From contig NZ_CP015971.1 in the NCBI RefSeq assembly GCF_001659705.1, forward strand, positions 1,612,001-1,676,000: 64,000 nt of DNA, read 5' to 3'. The position numbers and the translations under genes were made by a program. This document shows positions 1-15,948 of the stretch, one piece after another (within the stretch, counting starts at the first letter, position 1; each line of letters begins with the position of its first letter). Origin of the DNA: Arachidicoccus sp. BS20. GTDB lineage: Bacteria > Bacteroidota > Bacteroidia > Chitinophagales > Chitinophagaceae. A model generated the notes under the pieces. The model searched no databases and was not told where the DNA came from. It saw only the letters and a list, made by a program, of their open reading frames with translations.

Positions 1-370
1 GAACTGTTCTGTTTTTTGCAACTGCATCTTTTAACAAAGATTCAATTTCTTTGTATGGCTTTACTTCTGTGATGCCCGCTTTAGCAGCTTTAACGTGCAA
101 AGCTTCCGTTGGTCCTGTCCAAACAATATCATCAATAGTTGCTTCGTTGCCGAAAAGTATTTCTTTGTCTTCATCAATGTCTATAACAAACGCAAGCGAC
201 GGTGCATCAATTCCCGTATAATACAAAAAAGAACTATCCTGTCGAAAGCGGTAAACATTGGCTTCGTAACTCATTCCTACTTCATCATTACCCAGTAAAA
301 GAATGATGCCTTTTTCAACTTTCGACTTTAATGTGGAACGTCTTTGCCTGTATATTTCTGTATTGAACAT
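1..370 (-). CDS. pepP: Xaa-Pro aminopeptidase (N-terminal part, cut by window edge)
   Basis: The start codon is at 370 and the gene runs off the left end, so only about 123 N-terminal residues are visible. They match the aminopeptidase P N-terminal domain: after RRSTLKSKV come the motif LLLGNDEVGMSYEANVYRFR and then RQDSSFLYYTGID, with an acidic IDIDEDKEILF stretch. The family (M24B) removes an N-terminal residue that precedes proline and needs two metal ions; the catalytic pita-bread domain lies outside the window. The gene follows the M1 peptidase by 16 bp on the same strand, so it is probably the last visible gene of the hydroxyproline operon, where an X-Pro/X-Hyp peptidase makes sense. 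No signal peptide is seen, so it is probably cytoplasmic. Confidence 0.85.
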   Translation of the reverse strand, partial: MFNTEIYRQRRSTLKSKVEKGIILLLGNDEVGMSYEANVYRFRQDSSFLYYTGIDAPSLAFVIDIDEDKEILFGNEATIDDIVWTGPTEALHVKAAKAGITEVKPYKEIESLLKDAVAKNRTV

Positions 371-386
371 CTGAATTTATTTTAAA

Positions 387-2132
387 TTATTCCTTGCTTT
401 CCTTAACCGAAATATAATACATATATTCAATATCTTTCGGATTAAACAATGCTGTTTGTTTTTCATTTAACGTAGTGTGTTTCCATGTCGTTGCAGGATA
501 AATTTTAATGCCTGTATCTTTGCTGTTCAATGCCAACGGAAGATTAAAGCCTGTAACACAATTCGTCCATCTGTAATACACTTCTTTTTTATCTGTGCTG
601 AAATAATATTCCAATTCGGGAATCTGCGTGGTTCGAAGATATTGGTCAAACACTTTACTGTAATCAAATCCTGCGTGTTTTGAAATGTAATGTTCTATTT
701 GCGCAGAAGTTACCGTTTGATGATAAAATGTTGATGCTAAACCATGCCATATTTTTCTGAACAAAGAATCATCATTAATGCTATGACGAATAGCATGCAA
801 CATATTGCTGCCTTTGTAATACATATCGCCGCTGCCTTCTTCATTCACGCCGTAGCGTGCAATAATCGGTCGGTCATTGACAATATTTTTTCTGATGCCG
901 AAATTGTAGGCATTGCCTGCATCTTTTCCCCACATATATTCTACGAATAAGGTTTCGGAATAATTGGTAAAACCTTCATGCACCCACATATCCGCCAAAT
1001 CTTTTGTGGTAATGCTGTTGCCGAACCATTCATGCCCGCTTTCATGCACAACAATAAAATCCCATTTCGAACCCCAACCCGTTCCCGACAAATCACGACC
1101 TCTGTAACCAAAGGCATAATGATTGCCGTAAGCCACCGCACTTTGATGTTCCATGCCTGTATGCTGAACATCTACCAGCTTATAACTGTCTTCATAAAAA
1201 GGATAAGGTCCATACCAATATTCCATGCTGTGCAACATATTATGCACTTGTTCGGGCAAATAATTTTTTGCTTTTTGCAGATTATAATCCAGCACCCAGT
1301 AATCCAAATCAAGATGACCTTTCAACCCATTGAAATCTTCGTGAAAATTGACATACTTTCCTATGTACGGAATAATGCAATAATTGCTGATTGGATTTAC
1401 CACCGCCCATTTTGTGGTGGCTGTCCCATCGCTGTTTTCTTTACGGAACTGCAATCTTCCATTGGCAACTGCGACCAAAGTATCGGGCGCAATCATCGTT
1501 AAGGAAGCACCTTTGTCCGGCTCATCGCTTTGATGGTCTTTGCAAGGATACCAAACAGATGCACCCAAACCCTGGCAGCAAACTGTCATCCAAGGGCGAC
1601 CGAGAGAATCTCTGGTAAATGTCCAACCGCCGTCCCAAGGCGGCAACTTTGCTGTTTGAGGATAACCATGAAAAAACACATCAACCTTGTTGATGCTTCC
1701 GGCTTTTTGATGCGGCGTTTTTACATGCCACGCATTGCCTTCTTTTGTAAAAGACAATTTTTCTTTTTCATTATAAACGATGCTGTCGATAAGCAACGGT
1801 TCTTGCAAATCTATCTGCATGGCAGGTTGCTTTTCACTCATAACTTTATACGTAATAAGGTTATCTCCTGCCGTATATTTTTTATCAAAGTCGGGCTTTA
1901 TGGTAATATCGTATCGCTGCACGTCCCACCATGCACGCTCAGGCGTAATGCTGCCGCGCAAAGTATCGGCGTGCGTAAAAACACGATGCTCATACGCTTC
2001 GCGTTGCTCTTGTAACATACGCGCTCTTCTTGCACGGACGCTGTCGGCATTCGGTTGAGTTGCCTGAGCAAATACAATCATTGGCAAACTTGCTGTTACA
2101 ACTGCTCCGATGAAAAAATGTAATAATTTCAT
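387..2132 (-). CDS. Secreted M1-family zinc metallopeptidase
   Basis: A 581-residue gluzincin aminopeptidase. The start at 2132 was chosen because it begins a clear signal peptide (MKLLHFFIGAVVTASLPMIV, then FAQ) and avoids overlap with the upstream gene; the longer open frame begins inside that gene. The zinc site is visible as HESGHEWFG (His about residue 363), with the third ligand in the following WVHEGFTNYSE segment. The substrate-binding exopeptidase motif appears as GMEHQ (about 326-330) rather than the usual GAMEN, with His replacing Asn. The protein is likely periplasmic or surface exposed. It sits 19 bp after the FAD oxidase gene and 16 bp before the Xaa-Pro aminopeptidase, which suggests a role in trimming peptides for the hydroxyproline pathway; that role is inferred. 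Confidence 0.88.
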   Translation of the reverse strand: MKLLHFFIGAVVTASLPMIVFAQATQPNADSVRARRARMLQEQREAYEHRVFTHADTLRGSITPERAWWDVQRYDITIKPDFDKKYTAGDNLITYKVMSEKQPAMQIDLQEPLLIDSIVYNEKEKLSFTKEGNAWHVKTPHQKAGSINKVDVFFHGYPQTAKLPPWDGGWTFTRDSLGRPWMTVCCQGLGASVWYPCKDHQSDEPDKGASLTMIAPDTLVAVANGRLQFRKENSDGTATTKWAVVNPISNYCIIPYIGKYVNFHEDFNGLKGHLDLDYWVLDYNLQKAKNYLPEQVHNMLHSMEYWYGPYPFYEDSYKLVDVQHTGMEHQSAVAYGNHYAFGYRGRDLSGTGWGSKWDFIVVHESGHEWFGNSITTKDLADMWVHEGFTNYSETLFVEYMWGKDAGNAYNFGIRKNIVNDRPIIARYGVNEEGSGDMYYKGSNMLHAIRHSINDDSLFRKIWHGLASTFYHQTVTSAQIEHYISKHAGFDYSKVFDQYLRTTQIPELEYYFSTDKKEVYYRWTNCVTGFNLPLALNSKDTGIKIYPATTWKHTTLNEKQTALFNPKDIEYMYYISVKESKE

Positions 2133-2151
2133 ATCAATTTTATTTTCAGAT

Positions 2152-3417
2152 TTATCTTTTCGCAAAGCGTTCCACATCAAACGCTGCAATATCAACACTC
2201 GTCTTTTTCCCTTCCAATAACTCCCAAACCAATAAGCCAGTAGCCGCGCCAAGACTGATGCCCAATTGCGCATGACCTGTTGCAACTACTAAATTTTCGT
2301 AAGAAGAAGTTTTACCGATATACGGCATTCCGTCGCCGGAAACGGGACGAAAACCAAACCATATTTTTTCTTTTACTTCATCGAATGACAAATTAATTTG
2401 AGGGAAGAAATCATGCACGGCTTTGATGATTCCTGTTACGCGGTTATATCTCGGCGGCGTGTCTGTTGAAGTGATTTCCATTGTTCCGCCAAAACGGATT
2501 TTATCGCTTTCCAACGGCGTAAATGCACAGCGCCCTTCCACCAAAATTCCGGGATGCAGTATTTTTAATTCTTGTTTATCAATTGGCAACGTAAACGAAT
2601 AACCTCGTCCGCCGACTAAAGGAATCGTTAATCCGAGCTTTGATGAAATATTGCCGCTCCACGCGCCTGCCGCCAATACAAAAGCATCCGCTGCATAAGC
2701 ATCATTATCGGTTAATACCGCGCGTATTCGCTTTTTATCTGTAACTATATCCGTTACTTCTGCATTGGATATTAATTGAACATTGCTCATTTGTCGCAGC
2801 GATGCAATCAAATTGTTCATCAGCTTGCCCGGACTTAGATGACTGTCGCATTTATAATTAATGGCGCCGATTGCATTGATGGGCGTATTCGGTTCTAATT
2901 GTTTCAATTCCTCCGCATCAATCAACTCCACATCAAGACCAAGTTTTTGCCCGAAAGCCACCACGTGCGCGCATTCTTCCTTGCTTTTTTCAGTCTGAAA
3001 AATTTCGAGCATTCCTTTGTGTTCATAAGCAAAATCAAATTCTTTTTGCCAAATGTTTTCATATTCATGCAAACTCAGCAAGCCAATATCGCGCAACGGA
3101 ACGCCATGCTTTTCTACATTTTTTTCCTTAGCGCTTTTGATAAATGACAAGCCCCAGTTCATCAGAGATTTATTTAATCTCGGTTGAATATAAAACGGGC
3201 TTGTGGAATTGAACATCCATTTGACACCTTGCTTTACAATACCCGGCGTTGCTAATTGTATGTAATGACTTGGACAAACAAAGCCCGCATTTCCGTAAGA
3301 ACAATTATCGGTAAAGTCATTCTTATCCAACACAGTTACATCCCAACCTGCTTTTGCCAGATAACGCGCAGAAGATAATCCGGATATACCGCCGCCTATG
3401 ATAACTACTTTAGACAT
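2152..3417 (-). CDS. FAD-dependent D-amino-acid oxidase, likely D-hydroxyproline dehydrogenase
   Basis: A 421-residue DadA-like flavoprotein. The N-terminus has the Rossmann motif KVVIIGGGISGLSSARYLAK, followed by the acidic strand VTVLDKND that binds the ribose, and the C-terminus has the second FAD contact region with GHAQLGISLGAATG. General DadA enzymes oxidise D-amino acids to 2-oxo acids. In hydroxyproline operons this family oxidises cis-4-hydroxy-D-proline to pyrroline-4-hydroxy-2-carboxylate, the step between the epimerase and deaminase encoded in the same cluster. No separate electron-transfer subunits of the LhpBEF type are nearby, so a single-subunit enzyme feeding the respiratory chain or oxygen is inferred. 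The substrate is assigned by context only. Confidence 0.85.
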   Translation of the reverse strand: MSKVVIIGGGISGLSSARYLAKAGWDVTVLDKNDFTDNCSYGNAGFVCPSHYIQLATPGIVKQGVKWMFNSTSPFYIQPRLNKSLMNWGLSFIKSAKEKNVEKHGVPLRDIGLLSLHEYENIWQKEFDFAYEHKGMLEIFQTEKSKEECAHVVAFGQKLGLDVELIDAEELKQLEPNTPINAIGAINYKCDSHLSPGKLMNNLIASLRQMSNVQLISNAEVTDIVTDKKRIRAVLTDNDAYAADAFVLAAGAWSGNISSKLGLTIPLVGGRGYSFTLPIDKQELKILHPGILVEGRCAFTPLESDKIRFGGTMEITSTDTPPRYNRVTGIIKAVHDFFPQINLSFDEVKEKIWFGFRPVSGDGMPYIGKTSSYENLVVATGHAQLGISLGAATGLLVWELLEGKKTSVDIAAFDVERFAKR

Positions 3418-3449
3418 TTTGAAATCAATAAAAATTTGTAACCCGTTTC

Positions 3450-3675
3450 AACCACATAGAAACATAGAAAATTGATTATAGAAATAAGAATTTGAATATT
3501 CAGTATTCAACCTTAATAAGTGTATCATAGTATTTTTATTCGTATATTTTGTATTTGCAGCTTCGCTGCGATTCTTTTTGTCGAATAGAACTGCGTTTCA
3601 TCTTCGATGAAAATCTATGTTTTGCTAATGTCTTCGTTCTGCTCATCTATATAAAAACTATGTTACTATATGGTT
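3450..3675. repeat. MITE-like dispersed repeat, copy 1
   Basis: The 284-bp gap between the arabinofuranosidase and oxidase genes holds a non-coding element bounded by imperfect terminal inverted repeats: it starts AACCACATAGAAACATAG and ends CTATGTTACTATATGGTT. Inside is a hairpin, TTTCATC-TTC-GATGAAA at about 3598-3613, followed by AATCTATG. A second copy with the same ends and hairpin lies at 21968-22135. Nothing in it looks coding. It may weaken co-transcription of the flanking genes. Confidence 0.65.
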
Positions 3676-3701
3676 CGTTATTATTATTTTTTTTGAGTAA
3701 T

Positions 3702-6062
3702 TTAATGAATGATTCTTGCACCGAAAACCCTTCCTGCCGTTGAATTATATTTTGCATCAATCGTAATGCTGATGCTTGTTTTTCCTGTTATAAGATTTTG
3801 TGGAATTGAATAAGTTTTATCGTAAAACGCATCCGCTTTCTCATCCTTTAAATTTTCTGTTGCGAGCAAAACGCCATTGACCAATATGTCGAAATGATGA
3901 TTTTTATCTGCACCGATATAAGTAATTACCAAACTGTCGGCAGCATTTCCATCCACTTTCATATCAAAAGAAAATTTCCCGCCGGCACGCACTTCTCTTC
4001 CATGTTTGCCGAATGCTTCGCTCACATAACTGTTTCCAGAAACGGTTAAATGATGGTCGCGTTCGGGCTGCATTTCCCCGATGCGAAAAACATCGACAGA
4101 ATGCGCTTCCAGATACTTTTCTTTTTCGAGTTGCGCTTTATAAGCAGCTTGTTTATTTGTCCAATCTTTATTTGTAAAATAATCCCAATAAACATTGTAA
4201 TAATTTTTATAGGAAGCATAAAAAGGTTGCAGATTCACATCGAAAGGCTTGCTTGCACCGGCAGTTTTAAAGAGTAAATTTTTTGTATCAACAGGCTTAA
4301 TCCAGTCTGCAGGCTGTTTATCATCCGTCAGCAAAACAGGAATTCCCATGACAGGGTCAGGCATTGTATCGCCGAGGTTTCCCGACAATAAAACAGGTCC
4401 GTAAAATATGGCAATGCGGTTCGGATTATCGGGCATTGCTTCGGTATATAATGTTCTTTGCAAATGGTACGTGATTTTATCGCCCGGCTTCCAGGTTCTG
4501 TCAATTTCCACAAAACCGTCTTTATCCAAAACCGTTGGAACTGATTTTCCGTTTATATCAATGGCGTAATCGTTTGACCATTTCGGCTTGCGCAGTTTGA
4601 GTATAAAATGTTGTTTCTTTTTGGCATTGATGGAAATTGAAATATCATTTCCTGAAAGAATGGACGAAGCAACTGTAACCTGTGTTTGCCGCTCGCGCCA
4701 AGTGAGCGTTGCAGGAATAAACATATTTACATACAAACTATTGCCGTCGCTTCCCTCATAAAAAATGCTTTCACCGTACTTGCTGTGATTTTCCATGCCT
4801 GTGCCTACGCAGCAGGTAAATGTATTAAACTCATCGCTGAATTGCTTTTCTCCGCCCGACCTTAACGGAACGAAATAACAGAACATTCCCGTTTCTGGAT
4901 TTTCCGTAGCAAGAATGTGGTTGATTAAAGTTCTTTCGTAAAAATCGCCCAATTCTGAAGTTGGATGCAAAGCAAATAATTGCCTCGTGAGTTTCAGCAT
5001 ATTGTAAGACGGACAAGTTTCTGTGTTGTCGTCGCTAAGACGGTCGGACAATTTATCTTCATCGCCGAAATATTCGTAATTGCCTTCGCCGCCGTTGGCA
5101 TAAATATGATGCTCTACAATCGTTCGCCACATGAAACCCGCAATAGCGCTGTCTTTTGGGGTGCCGCTCCAAATGTATTGTGTTGCAGCGCCGATACCTT
5201 TTGGGATATTGGTATTTGCGTGTTTGTTTTGCAAAGCATCGATATGATTTGATAATGGCTGCATTACAAAATCATCGTAAAACTTATTGGAAATGTCTAA
5301 ATATTTTTTGTTGCCTGTGATGGCATAAACATAAGCCAATACATCGTTCATGCCGCCGTATTCGCAACGCAGCATTTTTTGTAATTGTTCTTCATTGAGA
5401 TTTTTCAAAATATTTCCTGTCCAGTCTGCCATGCCTGTTACAACTTTCAACGCTTGCCGATTGCCGCAATACAAGTAAGCATCCACCAATCCTGCCATTA
5501 CTTTATGCACCGTGTACCAGGGCGACCAACCGCCGTTCAAATCAAAACCGCCCGTGTGAATATCGCCAATGGAAACTTTATAGAAAATGCTGTCTTCATT
5601 TGGAATTGCGCCCACATAACCGGTTTTTCTTGCAGCCTGACACTTTGCTAATTCTCCGACAATATATTCAACGCGATTCTTAAAAACTGTATCGCCTGTT
5701 GAAGCATACATCATGCTTGTTGCGGAAAGATAATGCCCAAGCGTATGTCCCGAAAGGCCTTCGCTTTCCCAGCCGCCGTATTCTTTTCCTTTGGTTGGCA
5801 AATGCGCATTTTTATAAAATCTGCTTAATAAACGGTTTGGGTCTAACTCCAACAAATACGCCGAATCTTTTTCCTGCGCGTTAAAGAACGGTGTTCCCGG
5901 CAAAAGACGGACGTCCGATAAATTAAAGCCGTACACATCAATCGGAACAACAGGCTTTACTTTGAATCTGTTTTCATTTTTTACAGGAATGTACGATTGC
6001 GCACATACTTGTAAAGAACAAAACGCCGCAAATAGAAATATTATTGAAAGATTTTTTTTCAT
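3702..6062 (-). CDS. Secreted GH127/GH146-type beta-L-arabinofuranosidase
   Basis: A 786-residue DUF1680-family glycosidase. The start at 6062 gives the signal peptide MKKNLSIIFLFAAFCSLQVC; the open frame extends 15 codons further without a reason to use them. The (alpha/alpha)6 domain begins with the LSGHTLGHYLSA region. The unusual cysteine nucleophile site of this family is present: E348 and C350 in NTETC, and C417-C418 in TFTCCVGTGMEN, which in characterised members bind zinc, with one cysteine as nucleophile. The likely acid/base is the Glu of GDE (about 335). Beta-sandwich and DUF6805-like domains follow to the C-terminus. Characterised members remove beta-L-arabinofuranose, including from hydroxyproline-linked oligosaccharides. 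It lies 90 bp downstream of the permease in a hydroxyproline-degradation cluster. Confidence 0.88.
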   Translation of the reverse strand: MKKNLSIIFLFAAFCSLQVCAQSYIPVKNENRFKVKPVVPIDVYGFNLSDVRLLPGTPFFNAQEKDSAYLLELDPNRLLSRFYKNAHLPTKGKEYGGWESEGLSGHTLGHYLSATSMMYASTGDTVFKNRVEYIVGELAKCQAARKTGYVGAIPNEDSIFYKVSIGDIHTGGFDLNGGWSPWYTVHKVMAGLVDAYLYCGNRQALKVVTGMADWTGNILKNLNEEQLQKMLRCEYGGMNDVLAYVYAITGNKKYLDISNKFYDDFVMQPLSNHIDALQNKHANTNIPKGIGAATQYIWSGTPKDSAIAGFMWRTIVEHHIYANGGEGNYEYFGDEDKLSDRLSDDNTETCPSYNMLKLTRQLFALHPTSELGDFYERTLINHILATENPETGMFCYFVPLRSGGEKQFSDEFNTFTCCVGTGMENHSKYGESIFYEGSDGNSLYVNMFIPATLTWRERQTQVTVASSILSGNDISISINAKKKQHFILKLRKPKWSNDYAIDINGKSVPTVLDKDGFVEIDRTWKPGDKITYHLQRTLYTEAMPDNPNRIAIFYGPVLLSGNLGDTMPDPVMGIPVLLTDDKQPADWIKPVDTKNLLFKTAGASKPFDVNLQPFYASYKNYYNVYWDYFTNKDWTNKQAAYKAQLEKEKYLEAHSVDVFRIGEMQPERDHHLTVSGNSYVSEAFGKHGREVRAGGKFSFDMKVDGNAADSLVITYIGADKNHHFDILVNGVLLATENLKDEKADAFYDKTYSIPQNLITGKTSISITIDAKYNSTAGRVFGARIIH

Positions 6063-6152
6063 CTGTTTACCTTTATTATTTTTTAATTGCCAGATGGAAT
6101 GAGCCAAGATAATCTTTGCTCTCAGGCATATGTCTTATGGCTCATTTCATAA

Positions 6153-7577
6153 TTAATTTGAATTTTCTGCATTCGCTAAAGACCGTTTTCCTTTTTTCTC
6201 TGCGAGGTAATACACAGGCAAACCGAGCAACACGATAATCAATCCAAACCATGTATATCTCGGTTTTGTAAACAACAATGCAATACAAATAACCGATGCA
6301 ACTACAATATAAATTGCAGGCAATACAGGATAACCAAATGCTTTGTATGGTCTTGGCAAATCCGGTTTATTTTTTCTTAAACGAAAAACACCAATAATGG
6401 TTAAGACATAAAAAATAAGCACTACAAAAATTACATAATCCAGCAAATCGCCATAGTGCCCGCTCAGGCATAAAACACAAGCCCAAATACATTGAATCCA
6501 CAAGCCGAAAGACGGAACACCCGCACGATTCAAATGACCTGCCCGTTGAAAAAACAAGCCGTCTTTTGCCATAGAATAATATACTCGTGCACCCGTCAAA
6601 ACCAATCCGTTCACACAACCGAAAGTCGAAATCATGATTAGCGCAGCCATGATGATTGTGCCGCTGTTTCCCCAAATTTTATCCATCGCAGCAACAGCTA
6701 TTCTATCGTTCGGTGCAAAAGCAATATCATGCAAAGGCAACACAGCGAGATAAACAAGGTTGACAGCAACATACAAAACCGTTACAATCAAAGTTCCTAA
6801 CAGCAAACTCAAGCCGATATTGCGTTCCGGCTTTTTTACTTCGCCTGCAATAAAAGCAATACTATGCCACGCATCGGAACTGAAAAGACTGCCGACCATT
6901 GCCGCAGCAAACGCGCCAATAAATGCCATGCTTGTATAACTTGAAAAGCCGTTACTGCTTAACTTTTGAAAATTAAAAGCATCGTGCCAATTGCTTATCC
7001 AGACAGTTTTATTTGCGCCCAGCCATATTCCTAAGACAATCAATCCTATCAAAGAAAGCAACTTTGCCAAAGTAAATATCGTCTGTATTGTTTTTCCGTA
7101 TTTAATACCCAAACTGTTGATTGCAGTCAATAGAATAACTATGACTATTGCTAATAATTGTCCTGCGGAAACATTGAAATTGCCGAAATGCAGCACCATA
7201 TTTTCCTCTTTAAAAACAGGAAGCAAATACGCCGTAAACTTGGAAAATGCCACAGCCACAGCAGCAATCGTTCCTGTTTGAATAACCATAAAAAAACTCC
7301 AGCCGTATAAGAAACCGATGCGCCTGTTGTACGCTTCGCGCAAGTACATATATTGTCCGCCTGCGGTTGGAAACATGCCGCTCAATTCGCCGTAACTCAA
7401 AGCACCGATAATGGTAATAATGCCCGTAACAATCCACAACAAAATGAGCCAGCCCGACGAACCGACATTCCGAATCATATCGGCGCTCACGATAAAAATA
7501 CCTGAACCAATCATGGCTCCGGCAACGACCATAACAGCGTCTAATAAAGACACGGAACGTTTAAAAGATGCAGACAT
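6153..7577 (-). CDS. APC-family amino-acid permease, probable hydroxyproline importer
   Basis: A 474-residue integral membrane protein with about twelve hydrophobic segments. The start at 7577 places MSASFKRSVSLLDAVMVV directly before the first helix; upstream in-frame codons lack that pattern. The first helix carries the APC signature GAMIGSGIFIVSADMIRNVG, and the ELSGMFPTAGGQYMYLREAY segment is typical of the amino acid/polyamine/organocation superfamily. These carriers usually work by proton symport or exchange. The gene is 22 bp downstream of the epimerase and 90 bp upstream of the arabinofuranosidase, so hydroxyproline or a small prolyl compound is the likely cargo; the substrate is inferred from neighbours only. 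Confidence 0.85.
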   Translation of the reverse strand: MSASFKRSVSLLDAVMVVAGAMIGSGIFIVSADMIRNVGSSGWLILLWIVTGIITIIGALSYGELSGMFPTAGGQYMYLREAYNRRIGFLYGWSFFMVIQTGTIAAVAVAFSKFTAYLLPVFKEENMVLHFGNFNVSAGQLLAIVIVILLTAINSLGIKYGKTIQTIFTLAKLLSLIGLIVLGIWLGANKTVWISNWHDAFNFQKLSSNGFSSYTSMAFIGAFAAAMVGSLFSSDAWHSIAFIAGEVKKPERNIGLSLLLGTLIVTVLYVAVNLVYLAVLPLHDIAFAPNDRIAVAAMDKIWGNSGTIIMAALIMISTFGCVNGLVLTGARVYYSMAKDGLFFQRAGHLNRAGVPSFGLWIQCIWACVLCLSGHYGDLLDYVIFVVLIFYVLTIIGVFRLRKNKPDLPRPYKAFGYPVLPAIYIVVASVICIALLFTKPRYTWFGLIIVLLGLPVYYLAEKKGKRSLANAENSN

Positions 7578-7599
7578 TTTATATATTGAATTTGAAAAA

Positions 7600-8601
7600 T
7601 TACAGCACCGAAAATCCCAAAGCAAACGGGTCGTCTTCCGTATCAATCGTTATCGTATTGTAACCGTAAATGCGCGCCCAGCCTTCAACGCCGGGACGCA
7701 CGGCAGGCTTGCCGCCAACCGTTGTTTCTTCTTCGATTGTACCGATAAACTTTGAACCGATAATGCTTTCGTGAATAAATTGTTCGCCTTTTTTCAATAA
7801 ACCTTTTGCATACCATTGTGCAATTCTCGCCGAAGTTCCCGTGCCGCAAGGGCTGCGGTCAATTGCTTTTTCGCCATAGAAAACTGCATTTCGCGCAGTA
7901 GAAGTTTTGTCCAAAACGGCGCCCGTCCACATAATGTGATGCACGCCGTTAATCGTACTATCTTCTGGATGAGCAAACTCGTATTTTTCGTTAATTAATT
8001 TACGCAATTCTCTTGCCCAGGAAATTAATTTCTCTACAGGATAATATTCCAATCCTTTGAAGTTTTTTTGTACATCAATGATGGCATAAAAATTTCCGCC
8101 GTAAGAAACATCAAACACTAATTCGCCGAGTTCAGGACAATTAACCGTCAATTCCGTTTTGTCCAAATAAGCGGGAACGTTTACCAGCTTTACGCTTTTT
8201 ACTTTTCCGTTTTCTTCTTTATAAGTTATCTCAACCAAACCTGCAGGGGCTTCCATTTTTACAATGCCTTTTTGCTTTGGCACAATCAATCCTTCTTCAA
8301 TACCAATTGTAATTGTACCGATAGTTCCATGCCCGCACATGGGAAGACAACCACTCGTTTCAATGAACAAAACGCCTACGTCATTTGCTTTATCGGCGGG
8401 TGGATACAAAATGCTCCCGCTCATCATATCGTGTCCGCGTGGTTCAAACATCAAACCCTGACGAATCCAATCGTAATGTTGCAAAAAATGCTGGCGTTTT
8501 TCGCTCATATCTTTTCCTTCCAACACAGGTCCGCCGCCTGCAACAAGCCTTACAGGATTTCCGCAGGTATGCGCATCTATACAAAAAAAAGTTTTCTTCA
8601 T
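7600..8601 (-). CDS. 4-hydroxyproline 2-epimerase (proline racemase family)
   Basis: A 333-residue enzyme of the proline racemase superfamily that interconverts trans-4-hydroxy-L-proline and cis-4-hydroxy-D-proline by a two-base, cofactor-free mechanism. Both catalytic cysteines are visible: C89 in PMCGHGTIG and C252 in DRSPCGTGTSARIAQW. Having both separates it from trans-3-hydroxyproline dehydratases, which have Thr at the second site. The N-terminus FFCIDAHTCGNPVRLV is typical. It is followed after 22 bp by the permease and preceded after 9 bp by the semialdehyde dehydrogenase, so it is the first catabolic step of this operon. Proline racemase activity cannot be excluded from sequence, but the neighbours favour hydroxyproline. 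Confidence 0.92.
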   Translation of the reverse strand: MKKTFFCIDAHTCGNPVRLVAGGGPVLEGKDMSEKRQHFLQHYDWIRQGLMFEPRGHDMMSGSILYPPADKANDVGVLFIETSGCLPMCGHGTIGTITIGIEEGLIVPKQKGIVKMEAPAGLVEITYKEENGKVKSVKLVNVPAYLDKTELTVNCPELGELVFDVSYGGNFYAIIDVQKNFKGLEYYPVEKLISWARELRKLINEKYEFAHPEDSTINGVHHIMWTGAVLDKTSTARNAVFYGEKAIDRSPCGTGTSARIAQWYAKGLLKKGEQFIHESIIGSKFIGTIEEETTVGGKPAVRPGVEGWARIYGYNTITIDTEDDPFALGFSVL

Positions 8602-8610
8602 TCTTAGCTC

Positions 8611-10074
8611 TTATTTTTTCCATTCATTATCCACCAAACGCCAAATGTTTAAAGGATTTTCATCTTTCAGTTCGTCGGGCAAAAACTGTTGCGGAAAATT
8701 TTGATAAGCAACAGGCCGCACCCAACGCTTAATGGCAGTTGTTCCTACGGAAGTATAACGCGCATCCGACGTTGAAGGAAAGCCGCCGCCGTGAACCATG
8801 CTGCTGCAAACTTCTACGCCTGTCGGCACTTCGTTTACGATAATTCTGCCCGCAACGGATTGCTGCAATTGCAAAATATCTTTATGCTGCGCCATATCAT
8901 TTTCCGTTGCCATTAAAGTGGTTGTCAATTGTCCTTCGACAGATTTTAAAACGGCTTTCAATTCATCTTTATTCTGACAAATAACCAACAAAGAATAAGG
9001 CCCGAAAATTTCTTCTTTCAATATTTCATTTTCAAGAAAAATAGTTGCTCCAACCTTTGCAATTAAAGGCGTTGCAGCATCTTCTTTGCCGTCATTTGCT
9101 TGGGCAATTACTTCAACAACAGGTTGAATTTTTTGAATAGCATTGATATAATTTTCATAAATACCGTGATGCAGCATCGCCTGAGGAATTGAAGTTGGAA
9201 TAATATTTTTTAGTTCCTCAATAAATTCATTCAAACCGTTTCCTTCAATCGCAATCAACAAACCCGGATTGGTACAAAACTGTCCGGCGCCGAGCGTAAC
9301 AGAAGTCGCCAATTTCTTCGCAGTTTCCTGCGGAAATTTTTCCAGATATTCGGGATATAAAACAACAGGATTAACGCTGCTCATTTCCGCAAAAACAGGA
9401 ATAGGCTTTGGTCTTTCTTTGGCATAATTAATTAACGCATTTCCGCCCGAAAAAGAACCCGTAAATCCTATGCCGGTTGTAATTGGATGCTGCACCAACG
9501 CTTTTGCCAACGCAAAAGAACCTTCCACGTGCTGTACAGTAAATTCGGGCATTTGCGAAATTTCAACTGCTTTTTTTATCGCTTCAAAAATTGCCTCAGA
9601 GGTTTTGATATGCGCGGGATGCGCTTTAATCACAACTGTAGCACCCGCAGCCAAAGCGCTTGCCGTATCGCCGCCTGCAGTTGAAAATGCAAATGGAAAA
9701 TTGCTTGCGCCGAACACAATTACAGGTCCGACAGATTGCAACATTTTGCGAATATCGGGCTTTGGCAAAGGCTTGCGTTCCGCATTGCCTGTATCGATAG
9801 ATGCTTCTACCCAACTGCCTTCTTCCAACAGCTGAGCGAACATATTTAACTGATTTATAGTTCTTGTTAATTCGCCTTGCAATCTTGCTTCGGGCAGATG
9901 ACTTTCCTGCATTGCAAGTGGAACAAGTTCTGCTCTGCGCTGTTCTATCTGTGCACCTATTTCTTTTAAAAAACCGGCTCTTTTTCTTTTGTCTGTTTGA
10001 CTGTATATTTCAAATGCGGATAATGCTTTTTTCATTATTTCATCTGCCGATAATATTTCCTTTTCTTCATCCAT
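8611..10074 (-). CDS. 2-oxoglutarate semialdehyde (2,5-dioxovalerate) dehydrogenase
   Basis: A 487-residue NAD(P)-dependent aldehyde dehydrogenase. The active-site thiol is C267 in GAGQFCTNPG and the general base E230 in VFAEMSSVNP; a cofactor-binding Lys is at about 150 in VVIKAHPAH. The FAEMSSVNP and GQFCTNPGL wording is characteristic of the 2-oxoglutarate semialdehyde branch, which turns the deaminase product into 2-oxoglutarate for the TCA cycle. It is 12 bp downstream of the deaminase gene and 9 bp upstream of the epimerase gene. This is the final step of hydroxyproline catabolism; the same activity also serves pentose and glucarate routes, but no such genes are nearby. Confidence 0.9.
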   Translation of the reverse strand: MDEEKEILSADEIMKKALSAFEIYSQTDKRKRAGFLKEIGAQIEQRRAELVPLAMQESHLPEARLQGELTRTINQLNMFAQLLEEGSWVEASIDTGNAERKPLPKPDIRKMLQSVGPVIVFGASNFPFAFSTAGGDTASALAAGATVVIKAHPAHIKTSEAIFEAIKKAVEISQMPEFTVQHVEGSFALAKALVQHPITTGIGFTGSFSGGNALINYAKERPKPIPVFAEMSSVNPVVLYPEYLEKFPQETAKKLATSVTLGAGQFCTNPGLLIAIEGNGLNEFIEELKNIIPTSIPQAMLHHGIYENYINAIQKIQPVVEVIAQANDGKEDAATPLIAKVGATIFLENEILKEEIFGPYSLLVICQNKDELKAVLKSVEGQLTTTLMATENDMAQHKDILQLQQSVAGRIIVNEVPTGVEVCSSMVHGGGFPSTSDARYTSVGTTAIKRWVRPVAYQNFPQQFLPDELKDENPLNIWRLVDNEWKK

Positions 10075-10086
10075 AATTAATAAATT

Positions 10087-10986
10087 TTAATCAAAGAAGG
10101 GACGGTTTTTCAACGCATCTTCAATAACTTTTACGGCATCTTCACGCTTCTTTCCCGAAAGCGGAAGCCGCGGCAAACGCACATATTCGCTGCCAATTCC
10201 TGTGTAAACTTCCGTCAATTTAATATACTGAACCAACTGCGGATTAATATCAAACTCCAGCAACGGCATAAACCAACGATACACTTCCAGGGCTTCTTTG
10301 TATTTTTCTTCTTTGATAAATTTATAGATGGCAACAGTTTCTTTCGGAAACGCGCAAACCAAGCCTGCAACCAAGCCGTCCGCACCGGCAGCAAGCTCTT
10401 CAAATGTAAGCGTATCCACACCGCATAATATTTTAAAACGGTCTCCGAATTTATTTTTCATGCGCGTAACATTGGTTACGTCTCTGGTAGATTCTTTTAC
10501 TGCCTGAATATTGGGAACATCGGCAAGCTGCTCAAACATTTCCAATGTAATTTCGGTTTTATAATCAACCGGATTATTATACAGAATTATCGGCAGAGAA
10601 GTAGCAGATGCTACATCTTTAAAATATTTTACGGTTTCTTCATCAGTACTTTTGTAGCGCATGGGCGGCAATAGCATCAATCCGTCTGCACCCCATTTTT
10701 CTGCCGATTGTGCCAAAGCAATGGCTTCCTTTGTAGCGCCTTCGGCAATATTAACGATTACAGGTAATTTGTCGTTCATGTACGACACTGCAAATTTTAC
10801 CAACGTTTCTTTTTCCGCAATCGAAAGCGTACTGGCTTCGCCAAGCGAACCACCAATGATAATGCCGCTCACGCCTGCATCTGTTTGGGCATTCAGATTT
10901 TTTTCAAATAATTTTAAATCGAGTTCATCATCCTTGGTAAACTTAGTAGTAAGGGCGGGAATAACCCCGTTCCAATTTAATGACAT
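10087..10986 (-). CDS. DHDPS-family lyase, likely pyrroline-4-hydroxy-2-carboxylate deaminase
   Basis: A 299-residue TIM-barrel aldolase/lyase. The Schiff-base lysine is K164 in IQAVKESTRD and the conserved tyrosine is Y136 in IILYNNPVDYKT. Unlike the true dapA gene of this window (31375-32256), it lacks the PARTG motif that binds the dicarboxylate in dihydrodipicolinate synthase, supporting a different substrate. In hydroxyproline operons this family deaminates pyrroline-4-hydroxy-2-carboxylate to 2-oxoglutarate semialdehyde. It is the first gene of the minus-strand operon, transcribed away from the AraC regulator, with 12 bp to the next gene. Confidence 0.87.
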   Translation of the reverse strand: MSLNWNGVIPALTTKFTKDDELDLKLFEKNLNAQTDAGVSGIIIGGSLGEASTLSIAEKETLVKFAVSYMNDKLPVIVNIAEGATKEAIALAQSAEKWGADGLMLLPPMRYKSTDEETVKYFKDVASATSLPIILYNNPVDYKTEITLEMFEQLADVPNIQAVKESTRDVTNVTRMKNKFGDRFKILCGVDTLTFEELAAGADGLVAGLVCAFPKETVAIYKFIKEEKYKEALEVYRWFMPLLEFDINPQLVQYIKLTEVYTGIGSEYVRLPRLPLSGKKREDAVKVIEDALKNRPFFD

Positions 10987-11348
10987 ATACTTTTTTATTT
11001 ATTGTAAACAAATTTTCGTAAAAGTAGCAAGGGAATCTTCCCGGATATTTGCGTTTTTTATCTGTTGATGCCCATAAATTAACCAAGTAGTTTTTTTATA
11101 AAAAACTACTCAATTGACGATAAATTAAAATATGAATAAAATATATTTTTTATCTCAATTTTAAATTTATCCACCTCATTACGGCGCATATTTTTAAATT
11201 TCACATATTAAACATCGGACACTTCCAGTATTTTAACCAAGTTTGTTCGGAAATTAGCATTTTGCTGATAAATTATGAATAATAAGAAAAAGTTAATTAA
11301 TTTGGCTATGAAAATAATATTTATTGAACAAACGCGCCGGTATTTATT
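10987..11348. promoter_or_regulatory. Divergent control region between hydroxyproline operon and AraC regulator
   Basis: This 362-bp AT-rich gap separates divergent genes. On the minus strand a weak -7-like TACTTTTAC lies at about 11017-11025. Just upstream of it is the palindrome GGGAA-TC-TTCCC at 11031-11042, where a repressor or activator could touch RNA polymerase. A second, perfect 11-bp inverted repeat AGTAGTTTTTT / AAAAAACTACT with a 3-bp centre is at 11086-11110. The half nearest the regulator is very AT-rich and shows no clear coding potential. Operator function is inferred from symmetry and position. Confidence 0.5.
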
Positions 11349-12278
11349 ATGAAAGTTCTCCAATTCACAATCCCTGTTCAGCAGGATAAAACTATTGTTG
11401 CAAGAGAAGATATATTGCCTTATTTCTATCCGTACCTTCATAAGCATAAAGAAATGCAGATTACCTGGGTACAACAGGGCGATGGAACGTTGGTCGCCAA
11501 CAACAATATGCATCTTTTTCAAAACAATGATGTATTCGTTATAGGCGCAGACCTGCCACACGTATTCAAAAGCACGTCTTCTTATTTTATCAAAGAGAGT
11601 AATAAGCATATCCGTTCTCTTGATATATTTTTCGACCCGGATGTTATTTGCGATTCGTTGCTGAATATACCGGAACTCCGAAATCTCCGCACTTTTTTGA
11701 AAAATGCGCAAAACGGCTTTAGGGTTCCAAAAGAGATGGCGCATAAAGTGTCTGCCAAGATGCTTCATATAAAGGAGTTGGACAATGGTCTTGTGCGCAC
11801 GCTGCAATTTATAGAACTACTGCAAATACTGGCATCTGTTGATTCGCCGGAAAAATTATCGGCAGATATTTCATCTTCATTTAATAATGAAAACGACGGT
11901 ATCCGCATCAGTCATATCTATAATTATATTATGCGCAATTATGAAAGAGACATTACGCTTGAAGAAGTGGCACGGCAGGCATATATGACACCGCAAGCTT
12001 TTTGCCGCTATTTCAAGAAACACACGAGACATACTTTTGTCTCTTTCCTGAACGAAATACGTATTAATGAAGCACGCAAGCAATTGTCAACAGGAAATTA
12101 CGAAAGCATTTCGGGAGTTGCATATAATTGTGGATTTAACAGTATCTCCAATTTTAATCGCGTTTTTAAATCGATAACACAACAAGCACCTACCGATTAT
12201 GTGGAAACTTTGAAAAATGGTGTTGAACAAGAAAACTTTGAATACGGTGGCTCACTTACCAATTATGCCCTTTATTAA
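11349..12278 (+). CDS. AraC-family transcriptional regulator
   Basis: A 309-residue regulator. Residues 1-100 resemble an AraC-type cupin sensor domain (HKHKEMQITWVQQGDGTLV followed by HLFQNNDVFVIGADLPHVF). Residues about 190-285 hold the two helix-turn-helix units: ITLEEVARQAYMTPQAFCRY, and ISGVAYNCGFNSISNFNRVF followed by the typical TQQAPTDYV. It is transcribed divergently from the hydroxyproline operon across a 362-bp gap with two inverted repeats, so it very likely controls that operon in response to hydroxyproline or an arabinose-containing inducer; the ligand is unknown. Confidence 0.9.
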   Translation: MKVLQFTIPVQQDKTIVAREDILPYFYPYLHKHKEMQITWVQQGDGTLVANNNMHLFQNNDVFVIGADLPHVFKSTSSYFIKESNKHIRSLDIFFDPDVICDSLLNIPELRNLRTFLKNAQNGFRVPKEMAHKVSAKMLHIKELDNGLVRTLQFIELLQILASVDSPEKLSADISSSFNNENDGIRISHIYNYIMRNYERDITLEEVARQAYMTPQAFCRYFKKHTRHTFVSFLNEIRINEARKQLSTGNYESISGVAYNCGFNSISNFNRVFKSITQQAPTDYVETLKNGVEQENFEYGGSLTNYALY

Positions 12279-12334
12279 AGACACGTGTAAAAAGAACCTG
12301 CCGCAAATCATCGTTAATGATAAATTAATCCCGA

Positions 12335-13156
12335 TTAATCTTCATAGACGGAAGACAATGTCATAACCGGAACCGGCGGATGAAGAATAAACGAATTGCT
12401 TTCGCTCTTGTGAAACCATCCGTGTTTTTTGGGATGAATAATCAATAAATCGGGATGATTATTTGTTACATATTCTTCTATCCCGCTTTCAACCTTATCG
12501 TTATTGATAAAATGAAATTCGGGTTGAAAACATCCAAGCTGCTGCTCAGCAGTAACTGAGCCTGCAAGACTGTCTGCCCCCGATTTTTTCTCATTACTTA
12601 TGTAAACAACGTCCAATTTCGGGGAGAAACTTTTCAACCAACTTCTTAAATGTTCCCATGAAATATCGCCAGGATTTTCGAGATCAATTGCCAAGGCAAC
12701 TTTTCTGAAACCATTGAATGTTACAGGATTCACAGGAATAATCACAACAGGAAACGGATTATACTTTGCGATAGCAATAGCATGACTTCCAAAAACAAAA
12801 CGCTCCAACGAACCGGTCATATGCGCAGCAATAAAAACAGCAAAAGGCTTTACTTTTTCACACAATAATTCAAGCTCGGAATTAACGATACCTACTTTAA
12901 AGCAAGTATCAACAGGAATTTTCCCTGACGTATTTTTCGTTATTTCAAGCTCTAATGCAGACAATAATTCCTTGCTTGTATCTATTTCCATATCATATAC
13001 TTCTTGCGATAGCGGATATTCCGACCAAACCGGCTCAACAGTAATATTATGGAAAATAATCAACTTTGCTTTCAGTTGCAATGCCACATTTGCAGCATAT
13101 TCGACAGCTTTATTTGCCTCATTGGAAAAATCAGTCGAAGCGATTATCGTTTTCAT
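12335..13156 (-). CDS. Universal stress protein with two UspA domains
   Basis: A 273-residue protein with tandem UspA folds. The first domain begins KTIIASTDFSNEANKAVEYA and ends with the nucleotide-loop pattern HMTGSLERFVFGSHA followed by NPFPVVIIPV. The second domain (from about residue 150) is more divergent: FRKVALAIDLENPGD is recognisable but its glycine-rich loop is degenerate. Tandem Usp proteins bind ATP or AMP and act in stress survival; the specific role here is unknown. It stands alone, convergent with the AraC gene, with 56 bp between stop codons. Confidence 0.85.
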   Translation of the reverse strand: MKTIIASTDFSNEANKAVEYAANVALQLKAKLIIFHNITVEPVWSEYPLSQEVYDMEIDTSKELLSALELEITKNTSGKIPVDTCFKVGIVNSELELLCEKVKPFAVFIAAHMTGSLERFVFGSHAIAIAKYNPFPVVIIPVNPVTFNGFRKVALAIDLENPGDISWEHLRSWLKSFSPKLDVVYISNEKKSGADSLAGSVTAEQQLGCFQPEFHFINNDKVESGIEEYVTNNHPDLLIIHPKKHGWFHKSESNSFILHPPVPVMTLSSVYED

Positions 13157-13394
13157 TTTTGGTAAATTTGTTTATGCAAAAATATCTTTGACAGCACCAA
13201 AAATCAATGACAAGAAAACATAAAAAAGATGATTAAAATCAAGAATACGAAAGATTAGCCACAGTAACGAGTTTCTACATTGCTCAATATTTGTCGGATG
13301 CTTTACTTTCTTTAACGAAGTTTCGAGATAAATAAAAATATTTTTCTTCGTTTATTGTTGCCCCAAGATTTGTTTGGTAAATTTCTTTAAAAAC

Positions 13395-13479
13395 AAAAAG
13401 CAGCTATGAGGTCAATTCATAACTGCTTGGTTTTCAGCTCTCCCTGTTGGACTTGAGCCAACGACCCTCTGATTAACAG
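13395..13479. repeat. attL: displaced tRNA-Asn 3' half plus terminator
   Basis: Positions 13438-13479 repeat the tRNA-Asn sequence from its 3' end into the anticodon loop, with one change (13457). The copy breaks off after GATTAACAG, where the intact gene continues TCAGATGC. The adjoining hairpin AGCAGCTATGA / TCATAACTGCT, followed outward by T-rich DNA on the minus strand, is also repeated, so this is the original 3' end displaced by integration. The crossover site is probably in the anticodon-loop region. Confidence 0.85.
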
Positions 13480-13600
13480 AAAGATTTATATAATTATCAA
13501 TTATTAGCAACAAATAATAAATTTCTAATTATATAATTGATAATCAATAAATTAAAAATTAGTTAGTGATAATTGTTATCAATTAATAATAAGATTTGAT

Positions 13601-13627
13601 AAAAAATGTGTGCTAAAATGTGTATCA
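13601..13627. repeat. 27-bp direct repeat near left element end
   Basis: An exact 27-bp repeat with the core ATGTGTGCTAAAATGTGTAT that recurs in the same orientation at 17464-17490, close to the other end of the element. Each copy contains two ATGTGT units 12 bp apart. The position just inside both attachment sites suits integrase arm-type or excisionase binding sites. This copy also overlaps the integrase promoter region, so it could allow autoregulation. Confidence 0.7.
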
Positions 13628-13646
13628 CATTTTATAAGTTTGCATT

Positions 13647-14588
13647 ATGAAAAACGAAAGAATTGATTGCAAGGTTATCCTTGATAAACGCAGGGAAAGT
13701 AAAAATCACACTTATCCTTTAAGGATGAGATTGACCTTCAAACGAAAAAGAAAATATTACAGCATAACGACTAAATTAACAGAGGAAGATTGGAATATAC
13801 TCAACTCCGAATCTGTCAAAGGCCAGTTACGAAAAATAAGGAATGATATTGCCAAAGTTGAGGAAACGGCGAAAGATGTGATAAAATCTATACCCGCCTT
13901 TTCGTTTAAAGAATTTGAAGAAAGGTTCTTTAATAAAAGAACAAAAGAAGAATATCTTTCTTTTTACTTCTCCGAATACATTCAGACTCTCCGAAAAAAT
14001 GAACAAGTTAAGACAGCGATATCTTATGAAACCGCAATTAACTCATTGACAAAATTTAAAAAAAATATAAAGCCTACGGAAATAGATGTAAAATTTTTAT
14101 CTGAATACGAAAAATGGATGCTCAAGAATAAGAAAAGCAATTCGACTATCGGAATTTATTTACGAAATTTAAGAAGCATTATGAATATCTTAAAAGAAAA
14201 AAAATTGATTTCCGAAAATGAATATCCTTTCGGAAGAAAAAAATACCAAATACCGCAAGGAAGAAATGTAAAAAAGGCTATTCCACTGCCTTATATTAAA
14301 CAGATATTTGACTACAAAATTTCAGATGACAATTTATTTAAAGAGCGTTCTAAAGATTTTTGGTTATTCAGCTATCTTGCAAACGGAATGAATTTTACCG
14401 ACATTGCTAATTTGGTTTGGGGCGATTTTTCAGATGATTCATTTGTTTTTATACGTTCCAAAACCAAGCGAACAACTAAACATAACCCACACCCTATTAC
14501 TGTAATGAGGAATGAATATATAAACGCAATAATAAAAAAATGGGGGAATGTTGAAAAAGCAAAATATCCCGATGAATTGGTTTTTAAT
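13647..14588 (+). pseudogene. Tyrosine integrase, N-terminal part (split by IS)
   Basis: This segment encodes the first 314 residues of a Bacteroidota-type tyrosine recombinase: an arm-binding N-terminus (YPLRMRLTFKRKRKYYSITT), a SAM-like core-binding domain (about 95-200), and the start of the catalytic domain (WLFSYLANGMNFTDIANLVW, then KTKRTTKHNPHPI). It stops being integrase at the IS boundary and the frame then runs to an accidental stop at 14711. Joining it to 16006-16311 after removing the IS and one target duplication restores one uninterrupted frame of 415 residues (VFN then IISKEDDAD). In the first catalytic-Arg region the sequence reads NGMN, so the usual Arg is not obvious there. 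The element is likely no longer able to excise unaided. Confidence 0.9.
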
Positions 14589-14673
14589 CATTATTGTCCG
14601 ACTAAAATCGGGTATAAATCTGCTGTAACTCTCTATAGTAAAGGACTACAGCATAAAAAGTTATTGTTTCAAA

Positions 14674-14700
14674 ATTGGGGGAGTACCCCCGATTTTTTTT
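14674..14700 (+). terminator. Hairpin terminator inside left IS end
   Basis: An 8-bp stem ATTGGGGG / CCCCCGAT (one G-T pair) with the loop AGTA, followed on the plus strand by eight T residues. It lies between the left inverted repeat and the transposase stop codon. It would end transcripts entering from the integrase side and, more weakly, those of the transposase. Confidence 0.75.
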
Positions 14701-15906
14701 CTATGGTGTAAAAGCAAAAGAAGCGTTGTGTGTTTTTCTCCATGCCTTATACGTGTCTTTGATAAACTCTAACAACGATACATAGCTCATCAGGTGCAAT
14801 CTTATAACGGTGATCATGTTGGCAAAAGATTTCCTGGTTGCAGCTTTCTTCCTAATGACCACCATCAGCAGTTGTGCTATTAGTACGCAATATACCTGCA
14901 TTTTAATAGCATTCACACTATTGCCCCAAAAGTAACGCAACGGAAAGTTCTGCTTGATTTGCTTGAACAACAATTCTATCATCCACCTGTTTTTGTATAT
15001 CGTGGCTATCTGCGAAGCCGGTAAAGTAAAATTGTTGGTAATGAACACATATGCCTTGCCATCCTGGGTCTGGAACGTGATGCGCCTTAGCTTGAGCCGT
15101 TGTTCCTGTCCATTGCCGGTTTTTACCCCGATGGTGATGTATTGTTCTTTCAACACGCCTTTTGCATTTTTTTTCTTTGTTCTGTCCACCAATACTTTGG
15201 TTACGTGAAAAACAGCATTGTCCTTCATCCTGGTAACAAACCATATTTTCTGTTCCGTCCATTTCAAAAACTGACGATACACATTGTAGGCTTTATCGAA
15301 CACCAGCCAACTGTTGGCAGGTAAATCCAACTCGTACAGAAACTTACGGTCATGCTCCCGGGCGGCGGTCATACGCACAAACTCAGCCACTCCGCTAAAG
15401 GCATCCATCATTGTGTGTACTTTGATGCCGCCTTTCTTGCGGCTCCCGTCTTTAGTGTTGCGCCCTACGCCACGAAGCAATTCGCTGAACAACTGAATAG
15501 TGCTGCTGTCAATTATTTTCAGATTACGGATGCTCAAGCCCCTTAACCGGCTGTCCGAGATAAAACTGTGGTATTGCTGTAACAATTCGGTATAAATCGT
15601 TTCGAACACCAGAAAACTTCTTTTGCTGTTGGCATCCGACAGCGTGCTGCGCGCAGGCGCTTTATCAAAACCCAGGTGAACCAACTTGCCTTCACAGGCT
15701 AACATCCCCTCGCACAGCTCCCGCAAACCGTTGCAATAGCTGAATACACCATACAGCAGGCTTATCAAATGTATACGTACCGGTAATTTCTTGTAGTACC
15801 GGTTGGACTGGTGTTTTCTGACTGCTTTGTTTATCAAAGAACTGCTTATTAAATTTAATATCTGCGATAATATCGGCTGTCCGGTAAATTTTATAATTTC
15901 ACTCAT
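14701..15906 (-). CDS. IS4-family DDE transposase
   Basis: A 401-residue transposase with a DUF4372 N-terminal domain (KFTGQPILSQILNLI and VRIHLISLLYGVFSYCNGLREL-like region) and a DDE core. The catalytic residues are D133 in KIIDSSTIQL, D204 in WLVFDKAYNVY and E311 in YKNRWMIELLFKQIK. The last motif has the Y-(2)-R-(3)-E-(6)-K spacing that defines the IS4 family. The length is normal and the frame is open from 15906 to the TAG at 14701, so the enzyme is probably active. Confidence 0.95.
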   Translation of the reverse strand: MSEIIKFTGQPILSQILNLISSSLINKAVRKHQSNRYYKKLPVRIHLISLLYGVFSYCNGLRELCEGMLACEGKLVHLGFDKAPARSTLSDANSKRSFLVFETIYTELLQQYHSFISDSRLRGLSIRNLKIIDSSTIQLFSELLRGVGRNTKDGSRKKGGIKVHTMMDAFSGVAEFVRMTAAREHDRKFLYELDLPANSWLVFDKAYNVYRQFLKWTEQKIWFVTRMKDNAVFHVTKVLVDRTKKKNAKGVLKEQYITIGVKTGNGQEQRLKLRRITFQTQDGKAYVFITNNFTLPASQIATIYKNRWMIELLFKQIKQNFPLRYFWGNSVNAIKMQVYCVLIAQLLMVVIRKKAATRKSFANMITVIRLHLMSYVSLLEFIKDTYKAWRKTHNASFAFTP

Positions 15907-15948
15907 TAGTTATTGTTTAAGCTTGGTAACTCAAACTTAACTAATCGG

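Follow-up and report, generated by a model that had tools for sequence, protein, structure and literature searches.

A recurrent locus pairing a GH146-like enzyme with predicted hydroxyproline catabolism in Arachidicoccus and other Bacteroidota

The walls of plants and green algae hold a large store of protein in the form of hydroxyproline-rich glycoproteins (HRGPs). The genome of Arachidicoccus sp. BS20 is one contig of 3.49 Mb and is 96% complete. In a 64,000-nucleotide stretch of it (the window, G000:C1:1612001-1676000), a gene for a glycoside hydrolase (GH) lies in a row of genes predicted to break down hydroxyproline. We found that the association between this GH and the hydroxyproline genes is real and recurrent, not an accident of one genome. 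We consider it probable, at roughly two chances in three, that the locus forms the catabolic heart of a system by which the bacterium feeds on HRGPs of plants or green algae. Gene content, recurrent linkage, catalytic residues, and the failure to find AraA are observations; in the reading of them, the substrate, localization, induction, and order of steps are inferred.

To survey the family, we searched 244 genomes with the 4-hydroxyproline epimerase (E value of 1e-40) and the GH (1e-100) of the locus, which gave epimerases in 119 genomes and GHs in 77. Scoring took up to four GH candidates per genome and listed matches at 1e-100 only, so that some paralogues will have escaped the list; the listed places split into a close clade of at least 46% identity, present in 53 genomes, and paralogues of 36 to 43% identity at 49 listed places. 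An epimerase was carried by 48 of the 53 GH-clade genomes. The clade GH lay within 20 kb of it in 30 of the 53, spanning 22 genera by hand count; in two further genomes the pair stood 33 and 41 kb apart. No epimerase lay within 20 kb of any of the 49 listed paralogous places, in a comparison that sets genomes against places, ignores relatedness, and includes some genomes with short contigs. A preliminary description of this DNA, made from the letters alone, had proposed the pairing and a search for its co-occurrence across genomes, and the pairing held up in that search. Among the best 80 of 586 named Bacteroidota loci, 27 had an epimerase in the flank, 28 had at least two hydroxyproline genes, and 10 had arabinose genes. 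Those with an epimerase include Flavihumibacter, Lacibacter, and Chitinophaga, as well as Mucilaginibacter, Pedobacter, Arcicella, and Flectobacillus, the last four of which carry the linkage beyond the Chitinophagaceae. On a tree of the GH, the linkage state changes at least nine times among 63 labelled rows, and the pair is therefore not one frozen block; none of these rows has hydroxyproline and arabinose genes together. The labelled rows are 63 of 81, and short-flanked loci were kept only when they held two hydroxyproline genes, which inflates the hydroxyproline share.

The open reading frame (ORF) list and domain profile searches place eight minus-strand genes and a divergent AraC-family regulator at positions 1 to 12278 (Table 1), with all nine genes and their strands as the preliminary description had them. 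Leftwards from the regulator, the order is lyase, aldehyde dehydrogenase, epimerase, APC permease, GH, D-amino-acid oxidase, M1 peptidase, and Xaa-Pro aminopeptidase. The gaps from lyase through Xaa-Pro aminopeptidase, computed by hand on the assumption of inner ATG starts for the permease, GH, and M1 peptidase, are 12, 9, 22, 90, 284, 19, and 16 bp. The spacing had been called mostly short, which is right for most gaps and fails exactly at the GH, where the 90- and 284-bp gaps on its two sides contain dispersed repeats. The inner start taken for the permease lies within a longer ORF that begins at 7646, and that of the M1 peptidase, the ATG before MKLLHFFIGAVVTASLP, lies within one that begins at 2285.

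Table 1. Features of the Arachidicoccus sp. BS20 locus, in window positions
Feature	Positions	Strand	Evidence or remark
Xaa-Pro aminopeptidase (M24B), N-terminal part	1..370	-	PF05195 AMP_N; gene runs on outside the window to G000:C1:1610985
M1-family peptidase	387..2132	-	PF01433 4e-14; signal peptide by eye
FAD-dependent D-amino-acid (D-hydroxyproline) oxidase or dehydrogenase, predicted	2152..3417	-	PF01266 6e-66
Dispersed composite repeat separating GH from oxidase	3418..3701	.	genome self-match
GH146-like beta-L-arabinofuranosidase, predicted	3702..6062	-	PF07944 1e-117; 5opj 2.6e-134; Cys/Glu zinc site
Dispersed leader element, ending in the GH start codon plus AA	6058..6150	-	genome self-match
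APC-family amino-acid permease	6153..7577	-	PF13520 3e-60
4-Hydroxyproline 2-epimerase	7600..8601	-	NF010578 above cut-off; C89, C252
Aldehyde dehydrogenase, predicted 2-oxoglutarate semialdehyde dehydrogenase	8611..10074	-	PF00171 2e-33; 1eyy, 3v4c
DHDPS-family lyase, predicted pyrroline-4-hydroxy-2-carboxylate deaminase	10087..10986	-	PF00701 2e-61; Lys164
Intergenic region from which catabolic genes and regulator diverge	10987..11348	.	sequence
AraC-family regulator	11349..12278	+	PF12833 2e-18

Besides its PF07944 catalytic domain, the GH matches DUF4986 (below the cut-off) and DUF6805, and a signal peptide can be read by eye. Its best solved relative is 5opj (E value of 2.6e-134), which we take to be BtGH146 (BT0349), ahead of 8k7x (8.8e-70) and then 8k7y, presumably bifidobacterial GH146 enzymes. 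The alignment with 5opj spans residues 43 to 769, covering the catalytic and C-terminal domains and the Cys-Cys and Glu-x-Cys motifs. The distant match to 3wkw (5.1e-6), which we take to be HypBA1 of GH127, ruled out a HypBA1-type GH127 enzyme. By these comparisons, the GH sequence sits nearer the GH146 enzymes than those of GH127. The preliminary description had named a GH127/146 enzyme with a cysteine nucleophile site; the cysteine-zinc site stands and the family narrows to GH146-like. Residues E348, C350, C417, and C418 are invariant in all 12 clade members aligned, and their arrangement is the same pattern as E723, C725, C804, and C805 of Bll3HypBA1, described in passages of PMC10850190 on the zinc-cysteine site of GH146. 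Passages of the same paper report that the GH146 enzymes XeHypBA1 and Bll4HypBA1 cleave Araf-beta1-Hyp, that BT0349 sits in a rhamnogalacturonan I (RG-I) locus, and that the bifidobacterial Bll3HypBA1 is active on rice arabinogalactan protein (AGP). Given that known GH146 activities differ in this way, the family permits, without fixing, a hydroxyproline-linked substrate. Beta-L-arabinofuranosidase activity is predicted for the GH on family and residues.

An epimerase, a D-hydroxyproline oxidase, a deaminase, and a dehydrogenase are the enzyme types of the route from hydroxyproline to 2-oxoglutarate, and the four enzymes of the locus are predicted to carry out this conversion. Only the epimerase clears a curated equivalog cut-off (NF010578, 4-hydroxyproline epimerase, 571.3 bits versus a cut-off of 376); cysteines are present at both positions, 89 and 252, that had been picked out by the preliminary description. 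The oxidase, whose best NCBIfam match is a D-amino acid dehydrogenase below cut-off, the lyase, and the dehydrogenase have no curated match above cut-off, so that their exact reactions are assigned from family, residues, and context. The best solved relatives of the dehydrogenase are 1eyy (1.1e-116) and 3v4c (6.5e-109). The lyase, a DHDPS-family protein with Lys164, reads by eye GGSLGE versus GTTGE in a second DHDPS-type ORF of the window (31375-32256). DapA was rejected as an identity for the lyase, which scores below the dapA cut-off (192.7 versus 206.15), and that second ORF is a separate DapA-like one. As for the peptidases, the left edge of the window truncates the Xaa-Pro aminopeptidase. 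Its full gene (G000:C1:1610985-1612370) encodes 461 amino acids; the best NCBIfam match of the complete protein has the same name and lies below cut-off, and inspection by eye found no signal peptide. The HExxH motif of the M1 peptidase reads HESGH by eye. A paralogue of the M1 gene lies away from the locus at G000:C1:727879-729324, with 68% DNA identity.

We then compared gene content across 41 loci, namely that of BS20 and those of 40 among the 52 further genomes with the clade GH. An epimerase ORF was present in 28, and these were chosen as the linked loci, one of them (G025) with the clade GH as a fragment only; the rates that follow describe the linked set alone. The oxidase was found in 24 of the 28, the lyase in 21, and the dehydrogenase in 20, with all four hydroxyproline genes in 16. 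An AraC regulator was present in 14 and a permease in 9, and any of four peptidase families in 14. In 18 of the 28 loci there was a second, GH127-type enzyme, and in 6 a GH51. The reference for the GH127 type was a 655-amino-acid protein of G160, whose closest solved relatives are GH127 enzymes; 10 of the 18 are at least 62% identical to this HypBA1-like reference (itself included) and 8 are at 41 to 44%. Gene order differs among the linked loci, and the genes travel as a modular set instead of one constant operon.

Arabinose catabolic genes turn up beside the hydroxyproline operon in relatives. In three of the six Arachidicoccus genomes (G018, G187, and G244), AraB, AraD, and AraA lie beyond the AraC regulator, oriented away from the hydroxyproline operon, so that a single divergent region separates an arabinose half from a hydroxyproline half. 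In G187 and G244, a transporter, a NUDIX AraR, and a GH51-like gene follow in the same row; the G018 stretch breaks off within AraA. The GH match of G244 is split into several frame pieces. In G229, from another genus, hydroxyproline genes, the GH, araA, araB, and araD share one 20-kb stretch. AraA is found in four of the six Arachidicoccus genomes, the fourth (G116) having it elsewhere. In BS20 the regulator is followed by a universal-stress gene and then by an integrase-like ORF (13647-16311) that is split by a transposase-like one on the minus strand (14701-15906); the two ORFs were named by eye. A tRNA lies at 17539-17612. Given these ORFs, it is possible that the arabinose half was lost from the locus by rearrangement. 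A search for remnants of arabinose genes in the window or in G000:C1:1562001-1616000 gave a lowest tblastn E value of 0.051, and window positions 12201 to 17700 had no DNA match at 1e-5 in six stretches of other Arachidicoccus genomes.

In the system that we propose, the secreted GH146-type cysteine glycosidase would remove beta-L-arabinofuranose, most likely on hydroxyproline or at arabinogalactan ends, and peptidases would trim the bared peptide. The permease would import hydroxyproline, or peptide would enter and the Xaa-Pro aminopeptidase would then cut it. Conversion of hydroxyproline to 2-oxoglutarate would fall to the epimerase, D-oxidase, deaminase, and dehydrogenase, with the divergent AraC regulator in control. 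The L-arabinose genes that adjoin the locus in some relatives, of which three belong to the genus, would use the released sugar, and the window's species would have lost, or would simply lack, the arabinose half while retaining the amino-acid half. A bolder version, to which we give a little less than even odds, holds that both sides of the arabinofuranose-hydroxyproline bond are catabolized from one divergent AraC locus, and that the GH serves to unmask peptide, not to harvest sugar, in the window's species and G235, where no AraA was found.

The GH is also marked by a repeat. Its start codon is the final part of a dispersed element of about 95 bp (6058-6150), with 69 matches in the BS20 genome, 73 in G235, 15 in G116, 1 in G018, and 0 in G187 and G244; these counts are lower bounds, with 150 first-look candidates scored per genome. 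Most full copies start and finish with ATGAA, and tandem copies share it. Among 56 copies with a 3' end, a subset of those just counted, 42 open an ORF of at least 60 codons at the terminal start codon, versus 176 of 779 ATGAA words taken from both strands of 60 of the BS20 loci, elements included. A search upstream of the GH in G116, G235, and G018 gave no match to the element, which suggests that it was probably inserted at the GH start codon, with ATGAA repeated. The element looks like a mobile 5' leader that inserts at start codons. It often precedes proteins that look secreted, and another copy lies just upstream of 20037. A search of the whole window with Rfam at gathering thresholds found two tRNAs only and no family at 6058-6150, and RNAalifold predicted five pairs for the element, of which one showed a lone two-sided change, with a covariation term of 0.02. 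On the other side of the GH, pieces of the composite repeat match 37 other places in the genome at E values of 0.001 or less (40 of 88 candidates scored).

Several observations weigh against a glycoprotein-feeding system. Of the 53 GH-clade genomes, 23 do not have the GH and an epimerase within 20 kb, and 5 have no epimerase at the cut-off used. The clade GH is missing from 71 of the 119 epimerase genomes, and hydroxyproline use is therefore broader than the GH pairing; G187, itself an Arachidicoccus, has the hydroxyproline operon without a clade GH. The M1 peptidase occurs in only 4 of the 28 epimerase loci and the Xaa-Pro aminopeptidase in 5, so that peptidases, which the preliminary description counted as part of the system, keep a loose link to it through the 14 loci with a peptidase of any of the four families. 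Since the leader may carry its own translation signals, the GH may be expressed apart from the operon, which leaves co-transcription uncertain. Finally, AraA (PF02610) was not found in the 96%-complete BS20 genome, nor in G235. The single ILVD_EDD gene of BS20 adjoins an ORF resembling leuB, and an arabonate dehydratase of that kind therefore seems to be missing too. The preliminary statement that the locus uses both sugar and amino acid accordingly fits the relatives with arabinose genes, but not clearly BS20 itself.

Two other explanations can be weighed. The operon might be a general one for scavenging hydroxyproline from collagen, gelatin, or the free amino acid, with the GH as a passenger that acts on pectic or arabinan side chains. 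The many epimerase genomes without the clade GH would fit this, as would the dispersed repeats bordering the GH and the place of the GH146 enzyme BT0349 in an RG-I locus (PMC10850190, in part). We nonetheless think it unlikely, given the 30 close linkages in 22 genera against none at the listed paralogous places, the recurrence of the linkage in differing gene orders, and the GH127-type and GH51 enzymes that accompany it. Alternatively, the lyase and aldehyde dehydrogenase could serve an oxidative L-arabinose pathway, not (or not only) hydroxyproline. The oxidative L-arabinose and hydroxyproline pathways both pass through 2-oxoglutarate semialdehyde, and the GH would supply the arabinose. However, a search confined to the ILVD_EDD family of dehydratases found only the one gene beside the leuB-like ORF, the epimerase and D-oxidase stand in the same gene row, and all four hydroxyproline genes occur together in 16 of the 28 loci. 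We therefore rejected this route as very improbable.

A third possibility concerns the target, which the preliminary description gave as extensin-type glycoproteins. To the left of the window lie genes for a DUF885 protein, an S9/DPPIV-type peptidase on the other strand, a DUF5695 protein, two SusD proteins, a GH30 protein, and the beta-galactosidase GalA, which is above its profile cut-off. Each SusD is beside a long ORF taken as SusC (G000:C1:1590508-1602792); no SusC or SusD is among the described window genes. The DUF5695 protein (PF18951, of unknown function; G000:C1:1603388-1606144) has counterparts near hydroxyproline loci in several relatives, including the stretches of G116 and G235. 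It had no match to PDB sequences by sequence, and by profile none up to an E value of 10. A structural model built from 11 sequences (pLDDT 63; an earlier six-sequence model at pLDDT 50 was not used) best matched the polysaccharide lyase BACCELL_00875 (5no8), presumably a PL27 enzyme, with a Foldseek E value of 1.3e-19 and a VIA Z of 22.6 over 446 aligned residues, the next different protein having a Z of 15.6. The root-mean-square deviation of this alignment was 16.8, which makes domain placement unreliable, and we treat the match as a lead. PL27 lyases remove rhamnose from AGPs. Taken together, the outlying genes suggest AGPs as much as extensin, and "extensin-type" was too narrow.

In its specific form, this possibility has the GH146 enzyme trimming beta-arabinofuranose ends of AGPs, the genes outside the window (DUF5695, GH30, GalA, and SusD) stripping galactan, and the hydroxyproline operon eating the core. 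The DUF5695 fold match, the nearby GH30 and GalA, and the activity of Bll3HypBA1 on rice AGP (PMC10850190, in part) favor it. It is tempered by the model's pLDDT, the lack of a sequence match to solved structures, the GH30 protein's best match being the uncharacterized exported protein 3clw (with xylanases matching weakly), and the occurrence of DUF5695 in only 5 of the 28 epimerase loci. An AGP target in place of extensin thus seems a minority prospect, though a serious one. It is a narrower form of the HRGP reading, and the two are not exclusive.

Elsewhere in the window, ORFs at 49115-58723 resemble arginine biosynthesis genes by eye (argininosuccinate synthase, ArgC, ArgD, transcarbamylase, ArgB, and deacetylase). 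An ORF at 30338-31291 looks like a lipoprotein, is rich in glycine, tryptophan, and tyrosine, and has SRSYSAP repeats at its end.

Removal of arabinose from HRGPs is described in passages of PMC6085000 and PMC10850190. The HypBA1/HypBA2/HypAA system of Bifidobacterium longum and XeHypBA1/BA2/AA of Xanthomonas (GH127 or GH146, GH121, and GH43) likewise bring a beta-L-arabinofuranosidase to hydroxyproline-linked arabinose. Those clusters take the sugar, whereas the Arachidicoccus locus adds an amino-acid pathway; the passages mention no hydroxyproline catabolism, and a word search of PMC6085000 found no "catabol". The L-arabinose isomerase route of the Bifidobacterium-type sugar system has no PF02610 counterpart in BS20. 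BtGH146 (BT0349, taken to be 5opj) shares domains and motifs with the Arachidicoccus GH but belongs to the RG-I locus already mentioned, whereas the Arachidicoccus clade often stands with hydroxyproline genes. Operons for trans-4-hydroxy-L-proline degradation share all four enzyme types, the permease, and the regulator, to which the Arachidicoccus-type locus adds the GH146 along with peptidases and, for some relatives, arabinose genes too. In the genome-neighbourhood study eLife 03275, a word search found no "arabinofuranosid", "glycos", "aminopeptidase", or "Bacteroidetes". For Latescibacteria (WS3), passages of PMC4454575 predict extensin use by GH127; like the present proposal, they derive HRGP degradation from a beta-L-arabinofuranosidase, but they predict sugar release without linked hydroxyproline catabolism. 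Judged by titles and the openings of abstracts, none of the open-licence PMC papers found links the catabolism of hydroxyproline with an arabinofuranosidase, and none explains DUF5695 or start-codon repeats.

The published work that we found on bacteria eating HRGPs concerns the sugars. If both sides of the bond are indeed catabolized from one divergent locus, arabinose genes (with GH51 where seen) would run one way and the hydroxyproline operon with its GH146 the other, and the HRGP glycosylation site itself would be the nutrient. By coupling the GH to hydroxyproline catabolism, the recurrent locus offers a way to mark organisms that may use the glycoprotein in its entirety.

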